64,000 bases of DNA from Gilliamella sp. ESL0405. GTDB taxonomy: Bacteria > Pseudomonadota > Gammaproteobacteria > Enterobacterales > Orbaceae. The stretch spans positions 620,001 to 684,000 of the forward strand of contig NZ_CP048265.1 in the NCBI RefSeq assembly GCF_019469205.1, written 5' to 3'. This document shows, one piece after another, positions 15,133 through 60,583 of the stretch; the stretch's first letter is position 1, and the number at the start of each line of letters is the position of its first letter. A program made the position numbers and the translations under genes. The notes below the pieces were generated by a model. It searched no databases. It was not told the DNA's origin and saw only the letters and a list, made by a program, of their open reading frames with translations.

Positions 15133-15175
15133 CTGTCAAGATCTTTCAGAAATTGTATACGTTTAAGTAAAAAAA
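15133..15175. repeat. Solitary copy of a ~44-bp dispersed motif
   Basis: Matches the core of the 22.9-23.9 kb tandem array: CTGTCAAGATCTTTCAGAAA, then GTATACGTTTAAGTA and an A tract. It lies between mlaB and ibaG, 38 bp upstream of the ibaG start. Read on the minus strand it ends in a perfect TTGACA. Confidence 0.8.
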
Positions 15176-22544: not shown

Positions 22545-22877
22545 TTAATATCTTGGCATCAGCTTATCAACGGTTAACGCCCACGCATCGATCCCACCAC
22601 TTAGATTGTAAAGGTGTTGAGTTTCAAAACCATTCTCAGCTAAATAGTTGGCAACATTCAGGCTTCTTACACCATGATGACAATAGATCACAATATCAAT
22701 TTCATCGGGGATTTGATCAAGATAAAGTGGAATTAAATTCATCGGAATATGAGTTGCCCCCGCAATTGCGCAGATCGCAACTTCGTTAGGCTCGCGTACA
22801 TCAAGTAAAAATAACGGAGTTTTCTGATTTAGTTTTTCAGAAAGCTCGGTAGCTGTTAGTGTGTTTATATTATTCAT
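22545..22877 (-). CDS. Rhodanese-domain sulfurtransferase
   Basis: A single-domain rhodanese of 110 aa starting at the ATG at 22877; the frame continues upstream into the repeat region but the conserved domain starts at INTLTATEL. The catalytic loop YCHHGVRS (Cys near residue 70, then R and S) and the LLDVREPNEV motif are intact, so thiosulfate or persulfide sulfur transfer in the cytoplasm is likely. It is most like GlpE/PspE-type or YgaP-type small rhodaneses without the signal peptide of PspE. It is convergent with metQ (32 bp gap). Its leader lies within the first unit of the tandem repeat array. Confidence 0.85.
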   Translation of the reverse strand: MNNINTLTATELSEKLNQKTPLFLLDVREPNEVAICAIAGATHIPMNLIPLYLDQIPDEIDIVIYCHHGVRSLNVANYLAENGFETQHLYNLSGGIDAWALTVDKLMPRY

Positions 22878-22894
22878 TATGTCAAACTCATTAT

Positions 22895-23870
22895 AATTCT
22901 TGTCAAGAAGTTTCAGAAAATACCTATGTTTAAGTATAAAACACAATAGCTTCTGTTACTGCACCAATAATACTATCTTTCTATTTTAATTCAGCTAAAA
23001 GCCCTGTCTGTGTTTGTCTTAATTATTGGGTTAAATTCATTTTAATTCTTGTCAAGAACTTTCAGAAAATACCCATGTTTAAGTAAAAACACAATAGCTT
23101 TTGTGACTGCACCAATAATACTATCTTTTTATTTTAATTCAGCTAAAAGCCCTGTCGGTGTTGGGCTTTTGTCTTAATTATTGGGTTAAATTCCTTTTAA
23201 TTCTTGTCAAGAAGTTTCAGAAAATACCCATGTTTAAGTAAAAAAAGTAATAACGCTTATGTTACTGTACCAATAATACTTATCTTTCTATTTTAATTTA
23301 GCTAAAAGCCCTGTCGGTGTTGGGCTTTTGTCTTAATTATTGGGTTAAATTCCTTTTAATTCTTGTCAAGAAGTTTCAGAAAATACCCATGTTTAAGTAA
23401 AAACACAATAGCTTTTATTACTGTACCAATAATACTTATCTTTCTATTTTAATTCAGTTAAAAGCCCTGTCGGTGTTGGGCTTTGCCTTAATTATTGGGG
23501 TAAATCCATTATAATTCTTGTCAAGAAGTTTCAGAAAACACCCATGTTTAAGTAAAAACACAATAGCTTTTGTGACTGCACCAATAATACTATCTTTCTA
23601 TTTTAATTCAGCTAAAAGCCCTGTCAGTGTTAGGCTTTTGTCTAAATTATTGGGTTAAATTCAATTTAATTCTTGTCAAGAACTTTCAGAAAATACCTGT
23701 GTTTAAGTAAAAATACAATAGCTTCTGTTATTGCATCAGTAATACTTATCTTTCTATTTTAATTCAGTTAAAAGCCCTGTCGGTGTTGGGCTTTGCCTTA
23801 ATTATTGGGGTAAATCCATTATAATTCTTGTCAAGAAGTTTCAGAAAATACCTATGTTTTAGTATAAAAC
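22895..23870. repeat. Tandem array: six ~155-bp units plus a partial seventh
   Basis: Units begin at 22895, 23044, 23199, 23358, 23513, 23668 and 23823 (partial), spacing 149, 155, 159, 155, 155 and 155 bp. Each starts with the ~44-bp core (TTGTCAAGAAGTTTCAGAAA then ATACC, ATGTTTAAGTA). An AT-rich linker follows, then a terminator-like stem AAAAGCCC/GGGCTTTT, and an ATTATTGG segment that can pair with an upstream CCAATAAT. Units 4 and 6 share tail variants (GCCTTAATTATTGGGG), suggesting duplication of a dimer. No open reading frame is conserved. It fills the gap between pepN and the rhodanese gene. The regular period without variable spacers excludes a CRISPR. Confidence 0.95.
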
Positions 23871-23890
23871 CCTGGTTTTACACGCCATGA

Positions 23891-23922
23891 TCTCATCATG
23901 CTAAATCATTAACATGATGAGA
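23891..23922. terminator. Hairpin downstream of pepN
   Basis: A perfect 10-bp inverted repeat TCTCATCATG/CATGATGAGA with a 12-nt loop lies 10 bp beyond the pepN stop. A second small stem AAAACC/GGTTTT follows at 23866-23879. Together they probably end pepN transcription. Confidence 0.55.
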
Positions 23923-23931
23923 TAGGGGGGA

Positions 23932-26568
23932 TTATGCCGCTAGCGCTTTGCTGATTTTCTCAAATAAATCTTTTGATAGATTGTCCAGTTTTAGCAATGA
24001 TTCCAGTGCTTTGCGCATTTGTTGTTGGCGTTGTTGGTCATAACGTTTCAATCTGATTAATGGATCGATTAGTCTTGCTGCAACTTGTGGATTTTTTTGA
24101 TTTAGTTCTGTCAAAATTTCAACTAAAAATTGATAACCACTACCGTCAGTCGCATGGAATGCAACCGGATTATTATTCACAAAAGCACCGATGAGTGAAC
24201 GAATCCGGTTTGGATTGCTGAGCGTGAACGAGCGATGGGTAAGCAGTTTTTTAACCGTTGACAGGACATGTTTGTCCGGACTGGTTGCGTTTAACGATAA
24301 CCATTTATCCATAACCAAACCATCTTGGTGCCATTTATTGTCAAAATCGGCTAAAAGTTCTTGCCGGCAATCAAGCTGCGCTTTGACCGCAGTCGATAGT
24401 GCGGCAATTGAATCGGTCATATTATTAGCCTGATAATATTGTTGGCTAACTAACTGATTGACTTGTGCGCGCTCATTTGAATAAGCGAGTAGCATCAAAC
24501 AGGCATTTTTTAAAGATCGTTTAGCGATATCGTTATGCTCTATTCGATAATTGTCGAGTTTATTATGGCGGTAAACGGCTGTTAATTCGTCATATAACGC
24601 ATTGCCAAAACGAGTCAATAAAAACTGGCGGACTTGGTAAATGGCAATTGGGTCAACGATGTTAAACAGATTTGCCAATTCGTTTTCTGAAGGTAGTGTA
24701 ATGATTTGAGCAATTAACGCCGGATCGGTTGATTCAGACAAGAGCGTCGCTCTGAAAGCATCAACGACAGCATCCGGTAGGGTTAGCGCTCTATTTTGTT
24801 GGTAATTTTCAACATTGGTTTGTACATATTTATTTAACAATATTTGTGCTGCATCATAACGACTAAATGCATTGGTAGCATGTTGCATCAAGAAAATTAA
24901 GTCATTATCTTGATAATCATAGTGCATTTTAACCGGTGCGGAAAAATCTCGGAGTAGTGAAATAATCGGTTTTTGCTCGATATTATCAAAAACAAACTGT
25001 TGTTTGGCTTCGGTTAAATTTAATACATGATTAATCGCTTGCTGATTATGTGTCAGGGCAATTGTTTCGCCATTATGTTGATACAACTCGATATCAACCG
25101 GAATATGCAGCGGGCTTTTTTGTGCTTGATCTTGCGTCGCTGGGGTTGTTTGCTCAATGGTTAAGGTGTACTGTTTGGCGTTTGCATCATAACTATCGGT
25201 TATGGTTAATTGCGGTGTGCCCGATTGGCTGTACCATAATTTAAATTGCGTTAAGTCAATACCCGAAGCATCTTGCATTGCGGCGACAAAATCGTCACAA
25301 GTCGCTGCGCTGCCGTCATGACGCTTGAAATAGAGTTTCATTCCGGCTTGAAATTTCTCTTCACCTAATAGGGTGTGCATCATGCGAATAACTTCAGCCC
25401 CTTTTTCATAGACGGTGACGGTGTAGAAATTGTTCATTTCAATCACTTGATCCGGACGAATAGGGTGCGACATTGGGCTGGCATCTTCGGCAAATTGTAC
25501 TGTACGCAGTAGTTTGACATCGGCAATACGCTTAACCGCTCTTGATCCTTGATCGGCAGTAAACTCTTGATCTCTAAATACGGTTAAGCCTTCTTTTAAA
25601 CTTAGTTGGAACCAATCCCGACAAGTGACCCGATTGCCTGTCCAGTTATGAAAATATTCATGACCAATGACCGATTCAATGCCGATATAATCATCGTCAG
25701 TGGCGGTTTGTGGTTTGGCCAATACATATTTAGAATTGAAGATATTGAGTCCTTTGTTTTCCATTGCGCCCATGTTGAAAAAATCAACCGCCACAATCAT
25801 GAAAATATCTAAATCGTATTCTAAGTCAAATCGGGTTTCATCCCAGCGCATGGCATTTTTTAAACTGGTCATTGCCCAGTGCGAACGGTCTAAATTACCT
25901 TTATCAACGTAAATTTCAAGCTCGACTTTACGATTTGATCGAGTGATAAACTCATCTTTTAAAATATCAAAATCTCCGGCAACTAAGGCAAATAAGTAAG
26001 CTGGTTTTGGAAACGGATCTTGCCATTGTACCCAATGACGTCCGTCAGCAAGTTCACCTTGAGCAATGCGATTACCATTGGAAAGCAGATAAGGATACTG
26101 TTGTTTATTGGCTGTGATTCGAGTTGAAAAACGGGCTAAGACATCTGGTCGGTCCAGATAATAAGTGATGTGGCGAAAGCCTTCGGCTTCACACTGTGTA
26201 CATAGCGCTTCGCCGGAAACATATAATCCTTCCAGTGCGGTATTATCAATCGGTTTAATTTCATTAACAATTGTTAAGGTAAATTCATCTGAAGGAACAT
26301 GATGAATAATGATGCCACTATCGGTGATTTGATAATCTGTCCAAGGTTGTTCATCAATATTTATAGAGACTAATTTTAAATCTTCGCCATCTAACACCAA
26401 ATCTTTTGCTTGTGCATTTTTTTGGATAACCCGGCTACGAGCGGTTACAGTTGTAATGTCGGCTGACAGATTAAAATCAAGATCGATGTCAGTAATGGTA
26501 AAATCCGGCGCCTTATAATCCAGACGATATTTTGCCGTTGGTTGGGTATGGGGTTTGTTTGTACTCAT
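23932..26568 (-). CDS. pepN: Aminopeptidase N
   Basis: M1 zinc aminopeptidase, the main broad-specificity cytosolic aminopeptidase of enteric-type bacteria. GAMENKGLN (about residue 265) binds the peptide N-terminus, and HEYFHNWTGNRVT (about 300), with a Glu ~19 residues on, holds zinc. The length of 878 aa matches E. coli (870). It is divergent from pncB, as in E. coli, and forms one end of the conserved pepN-pncB-asnS-porin block. Confidence 0.97.
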   Translation of the reverse strand: MSTNKPHTQPTAKYRLDYKAPDFTITDIDLDFNLSADITTVTARSRVIQKNAQAKDLVLDGEDLKLVSINIDEQPWTDYQITDSGIIIHHVPSDEFTLTIVNEIKPIDNTALEGLYVSGEALCTQCEAEGFRHITYYLDRPDVLARFSTRITANKQQYPYLLSNGNRIAQGELADGRHWVQWQDPFPKPAYLFALVAGDFDILKDEFITRSNRKVELEIYVDKGNLDRSHWAMTSLKNAMRWDETRFDLEYDLDIFMIVAVDFFNMGAMENKGLNIFNSKYVLAKPQTATDDDYIGIESVIGHEYFHNWTGNRVTCRDWFQLSLKEGLTVFRDQEFTADQGSRAVKRIADVKLLRTVQFAEDASPMSHPIRPDQVIEMNNFYTVTVYEKGAEVIRMMHTLLGEEKFQAGMKLYFKRHDGSAATCDDFVAAMQDASGIDLTQFKLWYSQSGTPQLTITDSYDANAKQYTLTIEQTTPATQDQAQKSPLHIPVDIELYQHNGETIALTHNQQAINHVLNLTEAKQQFVFDNIEQKPIISLLRDFSAPVKMHYDYQDNDLIFLMQHATNAFSRYDAAQILLNKYVQTNVENYQQNRALTLPDAVVDAFRATLLSESTDPALIAQIITLPSENELANLFNIVDPIAIYQVRQFLLTRFGNALYDELTAVYRHNKLDNYRIEHNDIAKRSLKNACLMLLAYSNERAQVNQLVSQQYYQANNMTDSIAALSTAVKAQLDCRQELLADFDNKWHQDGLVMDKWLSLNATSPDKHVLSTVKKLLTHRSFTLSNPNRIRSLIGAFVNNNPVAFHATDGSGYQFLVEILTELNQKNPQVAARLIDPLIRLKRYDQQRQQQMRKALESLLKLDNLSKDLFEKISKALAA

Positions 26569-29787: not shown

Positions 29788-30894
29788 ATGAAACGTAATC
29801 TATTAGCAATCGCTATTCCCGCGCTTTTAGTAGCAGCTAGCGCAAATGCATCTATCGAAGTTTGGAACAAAGACGGTAATAAAGTTGATTTTTATGGTCG
29901 AGTAAAAGCAGCTAACAACATTACTGATCGCGGACAAGTTGGTGAAGGTGATGATACTTCAGCTCGTTTAGGTATGTCTGGCCAAACTCAAATCACTGAC
30001 AGCCTTACTGGTTATGGCCGTTGGGAATACGAAGCTAAAGCAGGTAAAGATTCACATAACGAAGTTCGTTATGCATTTGCTGGTTTAAACTTCGGTGATT
30101 TAGGTTCATTCGACTATGGTCGTAATGACGGTGTAGTTAAAGCAATCACTGCTTACACTGACGTATTACCACAATTTGGTGGTGACGCAGCTAACAACGA
30201 CTGGAATGTGTTATCTGCACGTACTAAAGCCGTTGCTACATACCGTAACAACAACTTCTTCGGTTTATCTGACGACTTCAGCTTTGCTCTTCAATATGCA
30301 GACAATGGTGATAACTCAAATACAAAAGACGCTATCCATAGTGGATCAAGAGAAGCTTACGGTGCTAACGCTCAATGGCGTATTTTTGACACTGGTCTAA
30401 CTGCTGGTGCAGCTTATGCTCAATCATCTTCAAGCTACTACCGTCATAATACTTGGGCTGCTGGTCTTAAATATGAAAACTACGATTTATATTTAGGTGC
30501 TAACTACTTCCAAAGCAAGTTAAAAAATCGTGTAGATTATCGTGATGGAACTGAAGATCTTAAAGTTAAAGGTTTTGAATTAGTTGCTCAATATGGTTTC
30601 GACTTAGAAGTGGGTCGTTTAACTCCATCTTTAGCTTATGTTTATCATAAAGTAAGCGGTGATCATTTACGTTTCCACGATAATTCACATAGCTCACCTT
30701 TAGTTAAATATGTATCTTTAGGTGCAACTTATGATCTTAACAAAAACTTCAGCGCAATTGTTGAATACAAATTCAACTTACTTGATCGTAAAGACGTTGG
30801 TGCAGCTGAAAACACTAAAGTACAACGTGGTAAACATGAAAACAAACCAGGTACTAAAGATGTGTTAGGTGTTGGTTTAATTTACCAATTCTAA
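29788..30894 (+). CDS. Outer-membrane general porin (OmpF/OmpC family), copy 1
   Basis: A 368-aa trimeric beta-barrel porin for small hydrophilic solutes. The signal peptide MKRNLLAIAIPALLVAASANA is followed by a mature start IEVWNKDGNKVDFYGRV, which matches the first strand of OmpF/OmpC. The constriction-loop region SFDYGRNDGVVKAITAYTDVLPQFGGD and the C-terminal ...GLIYQF with terminal Phe (BAM signal) are present. It sits directly after pncB-asnS, exactly where ompF is in E. coli, so it is the positional counterpart of ompF. Its own SD is GAGGG. Confidence 0.93.
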   Translation: MKRNLLAIAIPALLVAASANASIEVWNKDGNKVDFYGRVKAANNITDRGQVGEGDDTSARLGMSGQTQITDSLTGYGRWEYEAKAGKDSHNEVRYAFAGLNFGDLGSFDYGRNDGVVKAITAYTDVLPQFGGDAANNDWNVLSARTKAVATYRNNNFFGLSDDFSFALQYADNGDNSNTKDAIHSGSREAYGANAQWRIFDTGLTAGAAYAQSSSSYYRHNTWAAGLKYENYDLYLGANYFQSKLKNRVDYRDGTEDLKVKGFELVAQYGFDLEVGRLTPSLAYVYHKVSGDHLRFHDNSHSSPLVKYVSLGATYDLNKNFSAIVEYKFNLLDRKDVGAAENTKVQRGKHENKPGTKDVLGVGLIYQF

Positions 30895-30924
30895 TTGCTT
30901 AAGACTTAATTCTTAAAACTTAAT

Positions 30925-30953
30925 AAAAAGGGCACTTCGGTGCCTTTTTTTTC
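30925..30953 (+). terminator. Rho-independent terminator of porin 1
   Basis: AAAAGGGCACTTCGGTGCCT followed by a run of T is a stem GGCAC/GTGCC with a stable TTCG tetraloop. An almost identical terminator follows porin 2. Confidence 0.93.
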
Positions 30954-31213
30954 GCCTTCTATTAATCTTTTCAAACAAAAACACATTTTATGCTTAAAAA
31001 ATTTGATATTTAAGATTAAAATAAACGTAAATTCGCAGAATTAATCTAATTATCATTGTTAAATAGATAGTGTGTACAATAAAATCTATATACTACATAT
31101 TAAGAATAGATATCACAGTAATAATATAATTGCTATTAGCTAGCAGTTATTTATTAAATCGAGAGCAAAGTAATTTGCATCTTCAATAATAAAATACCTA
31201 AGAGGGTAACAAA
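30954..31213 (+). promoter_or_regulatory. Promoter and leader region of porin 2
   Basis: About 260 bp of AT-rich non-coding DNA. The only clear element is the ribosome binding site GAGGGTAAC just before the ATG at 31214. I could not pick a reliable -35/-10 pair. The upstream part does not resemble the leader of porin 1 except around the SD. Confidence 0.4.
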
Positions 31214-32353
31214 ATGAAACGTAATCTATTAGCAATCGCTATTCCTGCGCTTTTAATTGCAGGTACTGCTGGCGCTTCTATCGAAGTGTGGAATAAAGAC
31301 GGTAATAAAGTTGACTTTTATGGTCGAGTTTATGCCTTAAACTATATTACTGATCGTAACAACCAAACAGGCGAAGGCGACAAAACTACTGCACGTCTAG
31401 GTATGTCTGGTCAAACTCAAATTACTGACAGTTTAAGTGGTTATGGCCGTTGGGAATACGAAGCAAAAACAGGTGCTGATGCAGATAACGAAACTCGTTA
31501 TGCTTACGCCGGTTTAAACTTTGGTGACCTTGGTTCATTCGATTATGGTCGTAATGACGGTGTGTTAAAAACCTTAACTTCTTATACTGACGTTTTACCT
31601 GAGTTTGGTGGTGATGCTTCTGATAACAATCTTTATGCATTAACTGCACGTACTAAAGCGGTTGCAACTTACCGTAACTCTGACTTCTTCGGTCTAGTAG
31701 ACGGTCTTCGTTTTGCTGTTCAGTATGCGGATAATGGTGATAATAGTTCAACTGGTCGTTTCAATAAACACGATCGTAATGGCCACAATAGTGCAGAAGC
31801 ATGGGGTGCCGTGGTTGATTGGGATGTGTTAGAAACTGGTTTATCAGTTGGTGCCGGTTATGCACAAACTGGTGGTCATAAAGATGCTAAAGCTTGGTCT
31901 GCTGGTGTTAAATATGCCAATGATAACCTTTACTTAGCTGCATTATATATTCAAGGCAAACAAAAATATGGTTGGGATAATGGATCAGCGTCAACTAATG
32001 CTGATGATTTAAAAACCAAAGGTTATGAATTTGTTGCACAATATGGTATCGACTTCGAAGTGGGTCGTTTAACACCATCTGTTGCTTATATTCAACACAA
32101 AGTAAGCGATGCATCTCGTTATTCAAGCGATGCTGGTCTTAAAGGTAATGACTTAGCAAAATATGTTGATGTTGGTTTAACTTATGACTTCAACAAAAAC
32201 TTACAAGCTCTTATCGATTATAAAATCAACTTGTTAGATAAAGATGATATCGGTGCTCGTCGTGCTTTATATAATGACAGCACATTTAGCAAATCACAAA
32301 TCAAAGCTACAACAAAAGATACTGTAGCACTTGGTTTAATTTACCAATTCTAA
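31214..32353 (+). CDS. Outer-membrane general porin (OmpF/OmpC family), copy 2
   Basis: A 379-aa paralogue of the preceding porin. The first ~30 bases of the two genes are identical and the proteins share signal peptide, first strands, SFDYGRNDGV loop-3 region, EFVAQYGIDFEVGRLTPS/ELVAQYGFDLEVGRLTPS strands and the terminal GLIYQF. Differences concentrate in surface-loop segments, for example the Gly/Asn/Asp-rich stretch near residues 185-200. The pair is a tandem duplication, presumably giving channels with different pore properties or surface exposure. Confidence 0.93.
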   Translation: MKRNLLAIAIPALLIAGTAGASIEVWNKDGNKVDFYGRVYALNYITDRNNQTGEGDKTTARLGMSGQTQITDSLSGYGRWEYEAKTGADADNETRYAYAGLNFGDLGSFDYGRNDGVLKTLTSYTDVLPEFGGDASDNNLYALTARTKAVATYRNSDFFGLVDGLRFAVQYADNGDNSSTGRFNKHDRNGHNSAEAWGAVVDWDVLETGLSVGAGYAQTGGHKDAKAWSAGVKYANDNLYLAALYIQGKQKYGWDNGSASTNADDLKTKGYEFVAQYGIDFEVGRLTPSVAYIQHKVSDASRYSSDAGLKGNDLAKYVDVGLTYDFNKNLQALIDYKINLLDKDDIGARRALYNDSTFSKSQIKATTKDTVALGLIYQF

Positions 32354-35494: not shown

Positions 35495-35892
35495 TAATAT
35501 AACCTCATAAATAGAAATTCTGTTTAGTATTGTAAATCGTTCAAAATAGCTTGCAAGTGATAAAAAATAAAATGTCTATCCTTGTCAAGAACTTTCAGAA
35601 ACAACCTACGTTTAAGCATAATTTTTCTGAGAAAAATCCTAGAGTTAAACAGCTGTTATTTTTGCCTTACTCTTTTTCCAAAAATAAAATGATTTGATTG
35701 GTTAAATGTTATCGATCAATTTTCAAAAAATTATTTATTAAAACGTTGTTGTAGCGTTATATCCTAATAGGACAAGCCTTTAAATTGTGATAAAATAGCA
35801 AGATTATTTTCGCTTACCGTAATAGTTAAATAAGTGGTAATTAGATAATTGTGAGTTAAATAGCATTTAAAATTAATCTATAAGGAATTGAT
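35495..35892. promoter_or_regulatory. Divergent gmhA/ribH intergenic region
   Basis: About 400 bp without a gene. It holds a solitary ~44-bp motif (35581-35622) on the gmhA side and, on the ribH side, an extended -10 candidate TGATAAAAT at 35788-35796. No FMN riboswitch signature was recognised, and no open frame has a credible start. Confidence 0.45.
35581..35622. repeat. Solitary copy of the ~44-bp dispersed motif
   Basis: CTTGTCAAGAACTTTCAGAA followed by ACAACCTACGTTTAAGCATA matches the array core over its whole length. It lies 86 bp upstream of gmhA and has the same orientation as all other copies. Confidence 0.8.
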
Positions 35893-52898: not shown

Positions 52899-52959
52899 AT
52901 TCATTCCTTATCATCTATTTATTGGGAAGAATTTGCCAGATTAAGCGCAATGTGGCTCA

Positions 52960-53043
52960 GACTTCCCTACGCTGGTATGATCCAGATCAGGTTCAACGGG
53001 TAAACTCTCAGTTTTTTGCAAAAGGCAAAAAACACCCCGAGTC
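52960..53043 (-). ncRNA. TPP riboswitch (thi-box) controlling thiMED
   Basis: Read on the minus strand the element starts GACTCGGGGTG, has a long P3 arm (GCCTTTTGC flanked by T6/A6), the conserved CTGAGA and ACCCG, then GAACCTGATCTGGATCAT, ACCAGCGTAGGGAAGTC. All universally conserved TPP-aptamer parts are present, with P1 closed by GACT/AGTC. The thiM start follows after 61 nt, suggesting control of translation or of transcript elongation when TPP is high. No T-tract terminator is obvious in between, so translational control is favoured. Confidence 0.96.
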
Positions 53044-53086
53044 AAATTTTTCAGTTATTATGAACTTACTATCGGTTTTAAACAAG

Positions 53087-60405: not shown

Positions 60406-60539
60406 TTCAATTAGCCTAGCGTTTGGGTAAATGTGAATGACAACTTTTTATGATTGAAACGATAAGTTAAACGAATATAAAAAGTCTGACTGTCAACAGT
60501 TTAACAATTAACTATTGAATATTCAAAAAGAAACGTTTT

Positions 60540-60583
60540 TTGTCAAGAAGTTTCAGAAAATGTATACGTTTCAGTATAAAACA
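60540..60583. repeat. Solitary copy of the ~44-bp dispersed motif
   Basis: TTGTCAAGAAGTTTCAGAAA, then ATGTATACGTTTCAGTATAA and AAC. It lies between the LysE-type gene and kdsD, 134 bp upstream of the kdsD start. On the minus strand it ends in TTGACA, with AATATT 17 bp further, a possible kdsD promoter. Confidence 0.8.

Follow-up and report, generated by a model that had tools for sequence, protein, structure and literature searches.

Probable origin of a Gilliamella repeat array by tandem duplication of a gene start together with a recurrent intergenic core

A tandem array of ~155-bp units separates a rhodanese gene from pepN in the genome of Gilliamella sp. ESL0405. We consider it probable that this array is a VNTR that was seeded at a widespread intergenic 43-bp core by tandem duplication of the start of the neighboring gene together with the core, and that amplification and exchange between units followed. 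The repeat family to which the array belongs is genuine and has received little description, although its general type is familiar. Its significance is twofold: the source of the spacers can be traced for one interspersed-repeat array, to decayed copies of the adjacent gene, and a bee symbiont is found to carry a set of position-conserved, homogenized sites at and near which duplications and CRISPR arrays are concentrated.

Structure of the Array

The DNA analyzed here, hereafter the window, is a 64,000-nt stretch of the ESL0405 genome (NZ_CP048265.1, positions 620,001 to 684,000, forward strand); the genome itself (denoted G000) comprises 2,809,609 bp in one contig. TRF returned a tandem array at 22884–23870 of the window with a period of 155, 6.4 copies, 90% matches, and a score of 1545, and its two further entries for the window have a period of 13 and 14, respectively. 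The array consists of seven cores (43–48 bp) and six spacers (101–111 bp, ~107 bp), spans 22895–23870, and has a core at both ends. Core 1 (22895–22942), an A-type core, occupies the same position as the single core of relatives, 17 bp upstream of the likely start codon of the rhodanese gene (ATG, assigned by eye). It is followed by cores 2 (23044–23091), 3 (23199–23246), 4 (23358–23405), 5 (23513–23560), and 6 (23668–23715), and by core 7 (23823–23870), again A-type, which has no spacer copy after it, the downstream sequence being dissimilar to the spacers. Successive core starts are 149, 155, 159, 155, 155, and 155 bp apart, which bears out an earlier note on this DNA that had described seven copies spaced by 149–159 bp.

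The spacers occupy 22943–23043 (spacer 1, 101 bp), 23092–23198 (spacer 2), 23247–23357 (spacer 3), 23406–23512 (spacer 4), 23561–23667 (spacer 5), and 23716–23822 (spacer 6); cores and spacers are all given on the plus strand. To their left lies the rhodanese gene (22545–22877, minus strand; 110 aa, PF00581), which is GlpE-like, yet scores 49.5 bits against a GlpE equivalog cut-off of 102. To their right lies pepN, encoding aminopeptidase N (23932–26568, minus strand; TIGR02414, 1267 bits). A dyad recognized by eye between the pepN stop and the array (23880–23926) is perhaps the pepN terminator and is absent from the output of the terminator scan.

Whole units of the array are 88–95% identical to each other, and the last 45 bases of the spacers are 77–100% alike. 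A false duplication in the assembly is an unlikely source of the array because the units differ by 5–12%. The end cores 1 and 7 both carry ACCTATG and GTATAAAAC, as the earlier note had stated. Its description of the inner copies held in part: ACCCATG is present in cores 2–5 and is replaced by ACCTGTG in the divergent core 6, and GTAAAAAC is present in cores 2, 4, and 5, with slight differences in cores 3 and 6. Likewise, the tails of spacers 4 and 6 are indeed identical, but the duplication of a two-unit block that had been deduced from them is a poorer description, since the tails of spacers 2 and 3 are identical as well, the unit heads group differently, and the identity of units 4 and 6 over their whole length (94%) is exceeded by that of some other pairs. 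These patterns fit better with a mosaic that would have formed by exchange between units than with one clean block duplication.

We rejected a coding role for the array given that the longest ORF listed between cores 1 and 7 is 46 aa, in agreement with the view that no ORF is maintained. The spacers are copies of each other and the array is therefore not a CRISPR, as had also been recognized. No match to the array was found in collections of plasmids and phages, and an origin from either was rejected.

Elsewhere in the window, two neighboring and similar porin-like genes (29788–32353; 368 and 379 aa, named by eye) probably represent a gene duplication, and a TPP riboswitch is encoded on the minus strand at 52947–53049 (RF00059, 75.5 bits).

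The Junction in Relatives and the Origin of the Spacers

The rhodanese-pepN junction of relatives comprises one core-like copy or remnant, and an array was detected in none of 19 junctions with both flanks. Over long alignments, identity to other Gilliamella is mostly 70–85%. A clear core (E <= 2e-4) is present at 14 of the 19 and absent from five, such that relatives do carry a copy, a point on which the earlier note had made its reading depend. Copy number at this junction thus varies between related genomes, from seven cores in ESL0405 to one in relatives, which by this criterion makes the array a VNTR.

The spacers resemble the DNA to the left of core 1, which covers the leader of the rhodanese gene and its initial ~100 bp. 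Alignments of spacers to this DNA score 27–40, compared to shuffle means of −5 to −10, and five of the six spacers exceed all 300 shuffles; spacer 5 is the only one whose score was reached by a shuffle. In a second scoring, the rhodanese side yielded z values of 6.1 for the best copy and 5.4 for the median copy, with none of 200 shuffles as high. The pepN side showed no similarity to the spacers in either scoring. The spacers also align with the start of the orthologous rhodanese gene in other species: across the 14 junctions with a clear core, best-spacer z values range from 1.8 to 5.8, and the best spacer is matched or exceeded by none of 200 shuffles at eight junctions and by 2–11 of 200 at six. 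In both of these 200-shuffle tests the best-matching copies were picked before shuffling, and a median copy is given for the test of flanks in G000 and a second genome, G011, only.

A search for the window spacer showed that it is absent from 34 other genomes of the genus, save for one weak match of 43 bp (in G002). With this absence and the single-core relatives in mind, a foreign cassette was first favored as the source of the spacer, and it was dropped on the gene-start alignment. Collectively, the alignments show that the window spacer, which is joined to the core, arose as a copy of the 5′ end of the adjacent rhodanese gene and has since decayed. We conclude that the array unit is a duplicate of gene start plus core that has decayed outside the core.

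Distribution and Evolution of the Core

The core is bipartite and AT-rich, and its consensus comprises TTGTCAAGAASTTTCAG, a variable center of 10–11 bp, and YGTTTNAGTATAAAA. L044, a wrong stretch, was left out of the alignment from which the HMM was built. When the array was used as a query against G000, 144 matches were recovered, and those outside of the array are short and confined to the core. What other loci have in common with the 155-bp unit is the ~43-bp core alone, and the remainder of the unit is locus-specific. A core model search of G000 yielded at least 170 matches (150 of 3,944 candidates scored). In a profile scan of 1,585,660 distinct bases (56% of G000), 237 cores were identified at 86 sites, where cores <= 1.6 kb apart were merged into one site; these stretches were chosen partly for their cores, and the density is accordingly not that of the whole genome. 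The 86 sites include 52 solitary cores, 34 sites with at least two cores, and 28 with at least three. Three solitary cores lie in the window on the plus strand, at 15134–15174, 35580–35621, and 60538–60581, of which the second has an orthologous site in a diverged genome, G006, that also carries a core. A pattern scan of a genome collection (84,980 species by its description) returned at least 116 stretches, and all 116 among the matches listed fall in Gilliamella; the core is therefore widespread in this genus.

Cores of G000 and G006 occur in mixed gene contexts, convergent gene pairs included, on which grounds a role of the core as promoter was rejected. Among 43 cores in G006, 26 have an upstream gene that is directed away from them, and five are flanked by convergent genes. 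All but one of the 34 multi-core clusters in G000 have their cores on one strand, as direct repeats. Unlike these usual direct pairs, an inverted pair of cores ~520–540 bp apart was observed in three genomes (L099 2587–3170 in G006, 2222050–2222618 in G001, and 2492623–2493188 in G011), and two MAG loci, L221 and L234, contain cores that align with both members of the G006 pair.

At least 11 of 40 core loci in G006 are orthologous to core loci in G000, with flanks that are 67–82% alike. By chance, one or two common sites would be expected, an estimate based on 43 and ~65 sites among ~1,800 intergenic regions. In ten ortholog pairs, mean core identity is 0.81 for orthologous as well as for non-orthologous cores, and identity within a genome (0.88 and 0.86) is above that of orthologous cores. 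In 128 alignments of related Gilliamella loci, divergence is 0.077 in the core, 0.138 in adjacent intergenic DNA, and 0.108 in coding DNA; the pairs behind the comparison of 0.077 with 0.138 overlap and required a detectable core on both sides, which favors conserved cores. These observations show that the position of the core is kept between species and that its sequence is homogenized within a genome. Homogenization could reflect either gene conversion between cores, which would be our reading of the identities, or a binding protein with a drifting preference.

The distribution of cores bears on a second explanation, namely that the cores represent dispersed selfish DNA of MITE or REP type that a transposase mobilizes in trans and that arrays are by-products. 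High copy number, intergenic placement in all gene contexts, and the restriction of all listed matches to Gilliamella would be consistent with such an element. However, the conservation of at least 11 positions between genomes with flanks so diverged argues against it, as does the core itself, in which no obvious terminal inverted repeat or GC-rich hairpin was seen by eye. We therefore regard a selfish element as unlikely. The earlier suggestion that the array has a selected or selfish role is nonetheless reasonable for the 43-bp core, which is widespread in Gilliamella, occupies at least 11 intergenic sites common to two diverged genomes, and varies less among relatives than its flanks do; it is not borne out for the 155-bp unit, the spacer of which arose as a copy of the 5′ end of the neighboring gene and then decayed.

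Other Core Arrays

The duplication of flanking DNA does not appear to be limited to the window. Among 17 simple arrays of at least three cores in G000, similarity of spacers to a flank was reached by none of 200 shuffles in five, involving the left flank in the window array, L017, and L037 and the right flank in L028 and L030. Four more arrays (L015, the second array of L021, L022, and L024) were at 1–3 of 200 shuffles for the best copy, although the median copy of the second L021 array is ordinary (50 of 200). In these nine arrays the similarity is mainly one-sided. The other eight of the 17 have no flank origin detectable by the shuffle test. In a separate comparison, L040 scored 10 on the left flank, below its control maximum of 15, and was not counted as flank-similar. 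Three arrays were tested in G011, of which L256 and L257 resemble neither flank and L258 resembles both, which does not fit the one-edge pattern. Spacers of simple arrays are locus-specific, with matches only within their own array among the spacers of the first locus set compared; the exception is a group of 25 spacers over nine loci that comprises CRISPR-bearing units, shortened forms of these, and two short members (75 and 77 bp).

Comparison of two genomes captures arrays in different states. At the L256/L261 locus, four cores are present in G011 and two in G001, with flanks that are 90–97% alike. The spacer of the two-core locus in G001 is plainly a diverged copy of the DNA to the left of its first core, and, by eye, this copied DNA resembles a gene 3′ end together with its terminator. 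Directly adjoining the four-core array in G011, ~1.4 kb (L256 3596–5025) are absent from G001 and appear insertion-sequence-like by eye. A three-core array with the same three cores is common to G011 and G001 at a locus that is 93.8% identical, and arrays can therefore be stable. Additionally, three cores in Gilliamella bombi (L173 936–2941) enclose two tandem copies of a 118-aa ORF that matched neither NCBIfam nor Pfam.

As a control, 1.193 Mb of G000 away from known clusters were screened, which revealed 24 further cores and one array (at least three copies, period of at least 70) that lacks a core; since control stretches avoided known core clusters, they test for core-less arrays only. Longer tandem arrays are thus rare away from cores. 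Collectively, these observations suggest that events similar to those in the window probably made other arrays in G000.

CRISPR Arrays at Core Sites

The type I-F cas operon of G000 (Cas1f, Cas3f, and Csy1-4) adjoins a pair of cores. CRISPR-like arrays with a 60-bp period were found in 17 cases at core loci. One more lies in the control DNA, at a distance of 1.7 kb from a core; this control figure is the only unselected one, since the core loci had been picked because they contain cores. These 18 mini-arrays in the examined part of G000 are located in L027 (3233–6248), L034 (1438–5939), L010, L013/L097, L025, L026, L078, and L309. Many belong to tandem core-bounded units of ~900 bp that are distributed over several loci, and by eye the repeat stems differ between arrays. 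The units are bordered by an A-type core on one side and by a B-type/A-type pair ~50 bp apart on the other. In L027 and L034, the repeats have matches to Rfam CRISPR-DR4 that fall below the gathering score, and no Rfam CRISPR match was found for the L309 array.

Core-bounded tandem units in G011 (L254 1319–14943 and L255 2130–9501) carry a CRISPR-like array with a 61-bp period and, by eye, a small gene. The repeat of this array, which we take to resemble type I-E, has no Rfam CRISPR match, and csy4 has no match in G011. The GC-rich body of the CRISPR-bearing units matches the TwoAYGGAY RNA (RF01731) just above the gathering score, at L027 4003–4073 and 4953–5023 and at L034 2737–2807, 3746–3816, and 4584–4654. 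One such unit body, compared to a plasmid collection, gave no match.

These units invite a third explanation, in which a recombinase of a site-specific cassette system inserts one-core DNA at resident cores, with CRISPR arrays, small genes, and the 107-bp spacer as cargo. The common body of core-bounded CRISPR-bearing units at several G000 loci, the core-bounded units of G011, and the ORF that is present twice between cores in G. bombi would be expected of such a system, as would the bipartite core with its variable center and the one-strand orientation of 33 of 34 multi-core clusters. However, one-strand clusters are expected from tandem duplication too, and the window spacer is a decayed copy of the neighboring gene rather than foreign cargo. 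Matches to PF00589 in six genomes number three in G000, three in G010, and 7–9 in the others, and beyond two high-scoring matches in each, which in G000 would be XerC and XerD, no common one is evident. Insertion of cassettes may apply to the CRISPR units, but the origin of the window spacer contradicts it for the window array, and overall we judge this system to be quite improbable.

A bolder proposal is that the core is a dedicated recombination site, conserved in Gilliamella, with which the cell duplicates and redistributes modules bounded by cores, chiefly CRISPR arrays and their leaders (two repeat types), thereby copying immune memory around the chromosome; the 155-bp array would then be an idling product. 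We consider this very doubtful.

A Model for the Origin of the Array

We return to tandem duplication of gene start and core as the preferred origin of the array. A segment that spans the opening ~100 bp of the rhodanese gene and the adjoining core would have undergone tandem duplication, its far boundary coinciding with the right edge of the core or lying no more than ~20 bp from it; at present divergence, an overlap of <= ~20 bp beyond that edge would go undetected. The extra gene starts, being functionless, would then have decayed, and the core would have remained intact. Later slippage or unequal exchange between core-spacer units could have produced seven cores and shuffled the variants among them, and we infer that slippage or recombination was the engine of amplification. 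Direct cores provide shared homology, through which the DNA between them, including CRISPR arrays, may undergo duplication and on occasion be transferred to further core sites; such copying would also homogenize the cores within a genome. The frequent proximity of one unit edge to the edge of a core points to the core as a possible trigger of breaks or fork stalling, and the core may accordingly be a protein-bound site at which such events start duplications.

That the array instead encodes a series of small RNAs transcribed from promoters in the cores is highly improbable, since the GC-rich dyad seen by eye in five of six spacers (AAAAGCCC..GGGCTTTT or near) and the weak sigma-70-like match once per unit on the minus strand are set against a tested window spacer that is no more structured than shuffles (z of −0.9 and −1.5), six promoter matches compared to a shuffle mean of 6.1, no terminator that passes the scan, and no Rfam match in the array, on which grounds a structured RNA was rejected as well.

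Comparison With Known Repeat Systems

A survey of the literature on Gilliamella and on interspersed repeats, judged by titles and abstract openings, yielded no description of the core repeat. Several known systems nonetheless share parts of its plan. REP/BIME and ERIC elements of enterobacteria are palindromic hairpins that often occur as inverted pairs. Like them, the Gilliamella core is present in many intergenic copies in all gene contexts, but it lacks an obvious GC-rich hairpin (by eye), and its multi-core clusters in G000 are, with one exception, direct, although an inverted pair is present in three other genomes. MIRU-VNTRs of mycobacteria are dispersed intergenic units, some of which are amplified in tandem to variable number, and most of the unit sequence is conserved from one locus to the next. 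The dispersed intergenic units of Gilliamella, some in variable tandem, are similar in this respect; however, only the core is common across loci.

The closest known kind is the STAR element of Staphylococcus, as portrayed in the part of its description considered here (PMC3532100). STAR elements are interspersed intergenic direct repeats with a short common core and recurring locus-specific spacers, and their loci expand and contract (PMC3532100). The STAR core is a GC-rich 14-bp sequence with the consensus T(G/A/T)TGTTG(G/T)GGCCC(C/A), its locations differ between species, and the origin and spread of elements of this type are called unknown in that part of the report (PMC3532100). When compared to this account, the Gilliamella core likewise forms intergenic direct repeats with recurring locus-specific spacers. 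In contrast to the STAR core, it is 43 bp long, AT-rich, and bipartite, and its profile contains no GC-rich block and does not conform to the STAR consensus; at least 11 of its sites are common to the diverged species G000 and G006; the window spacer can be traced to the neighboring gene; and some of its units carry CRISPR arrays. As far as that account extends, the two are alike in plan and unlike in sequence and positional stability.
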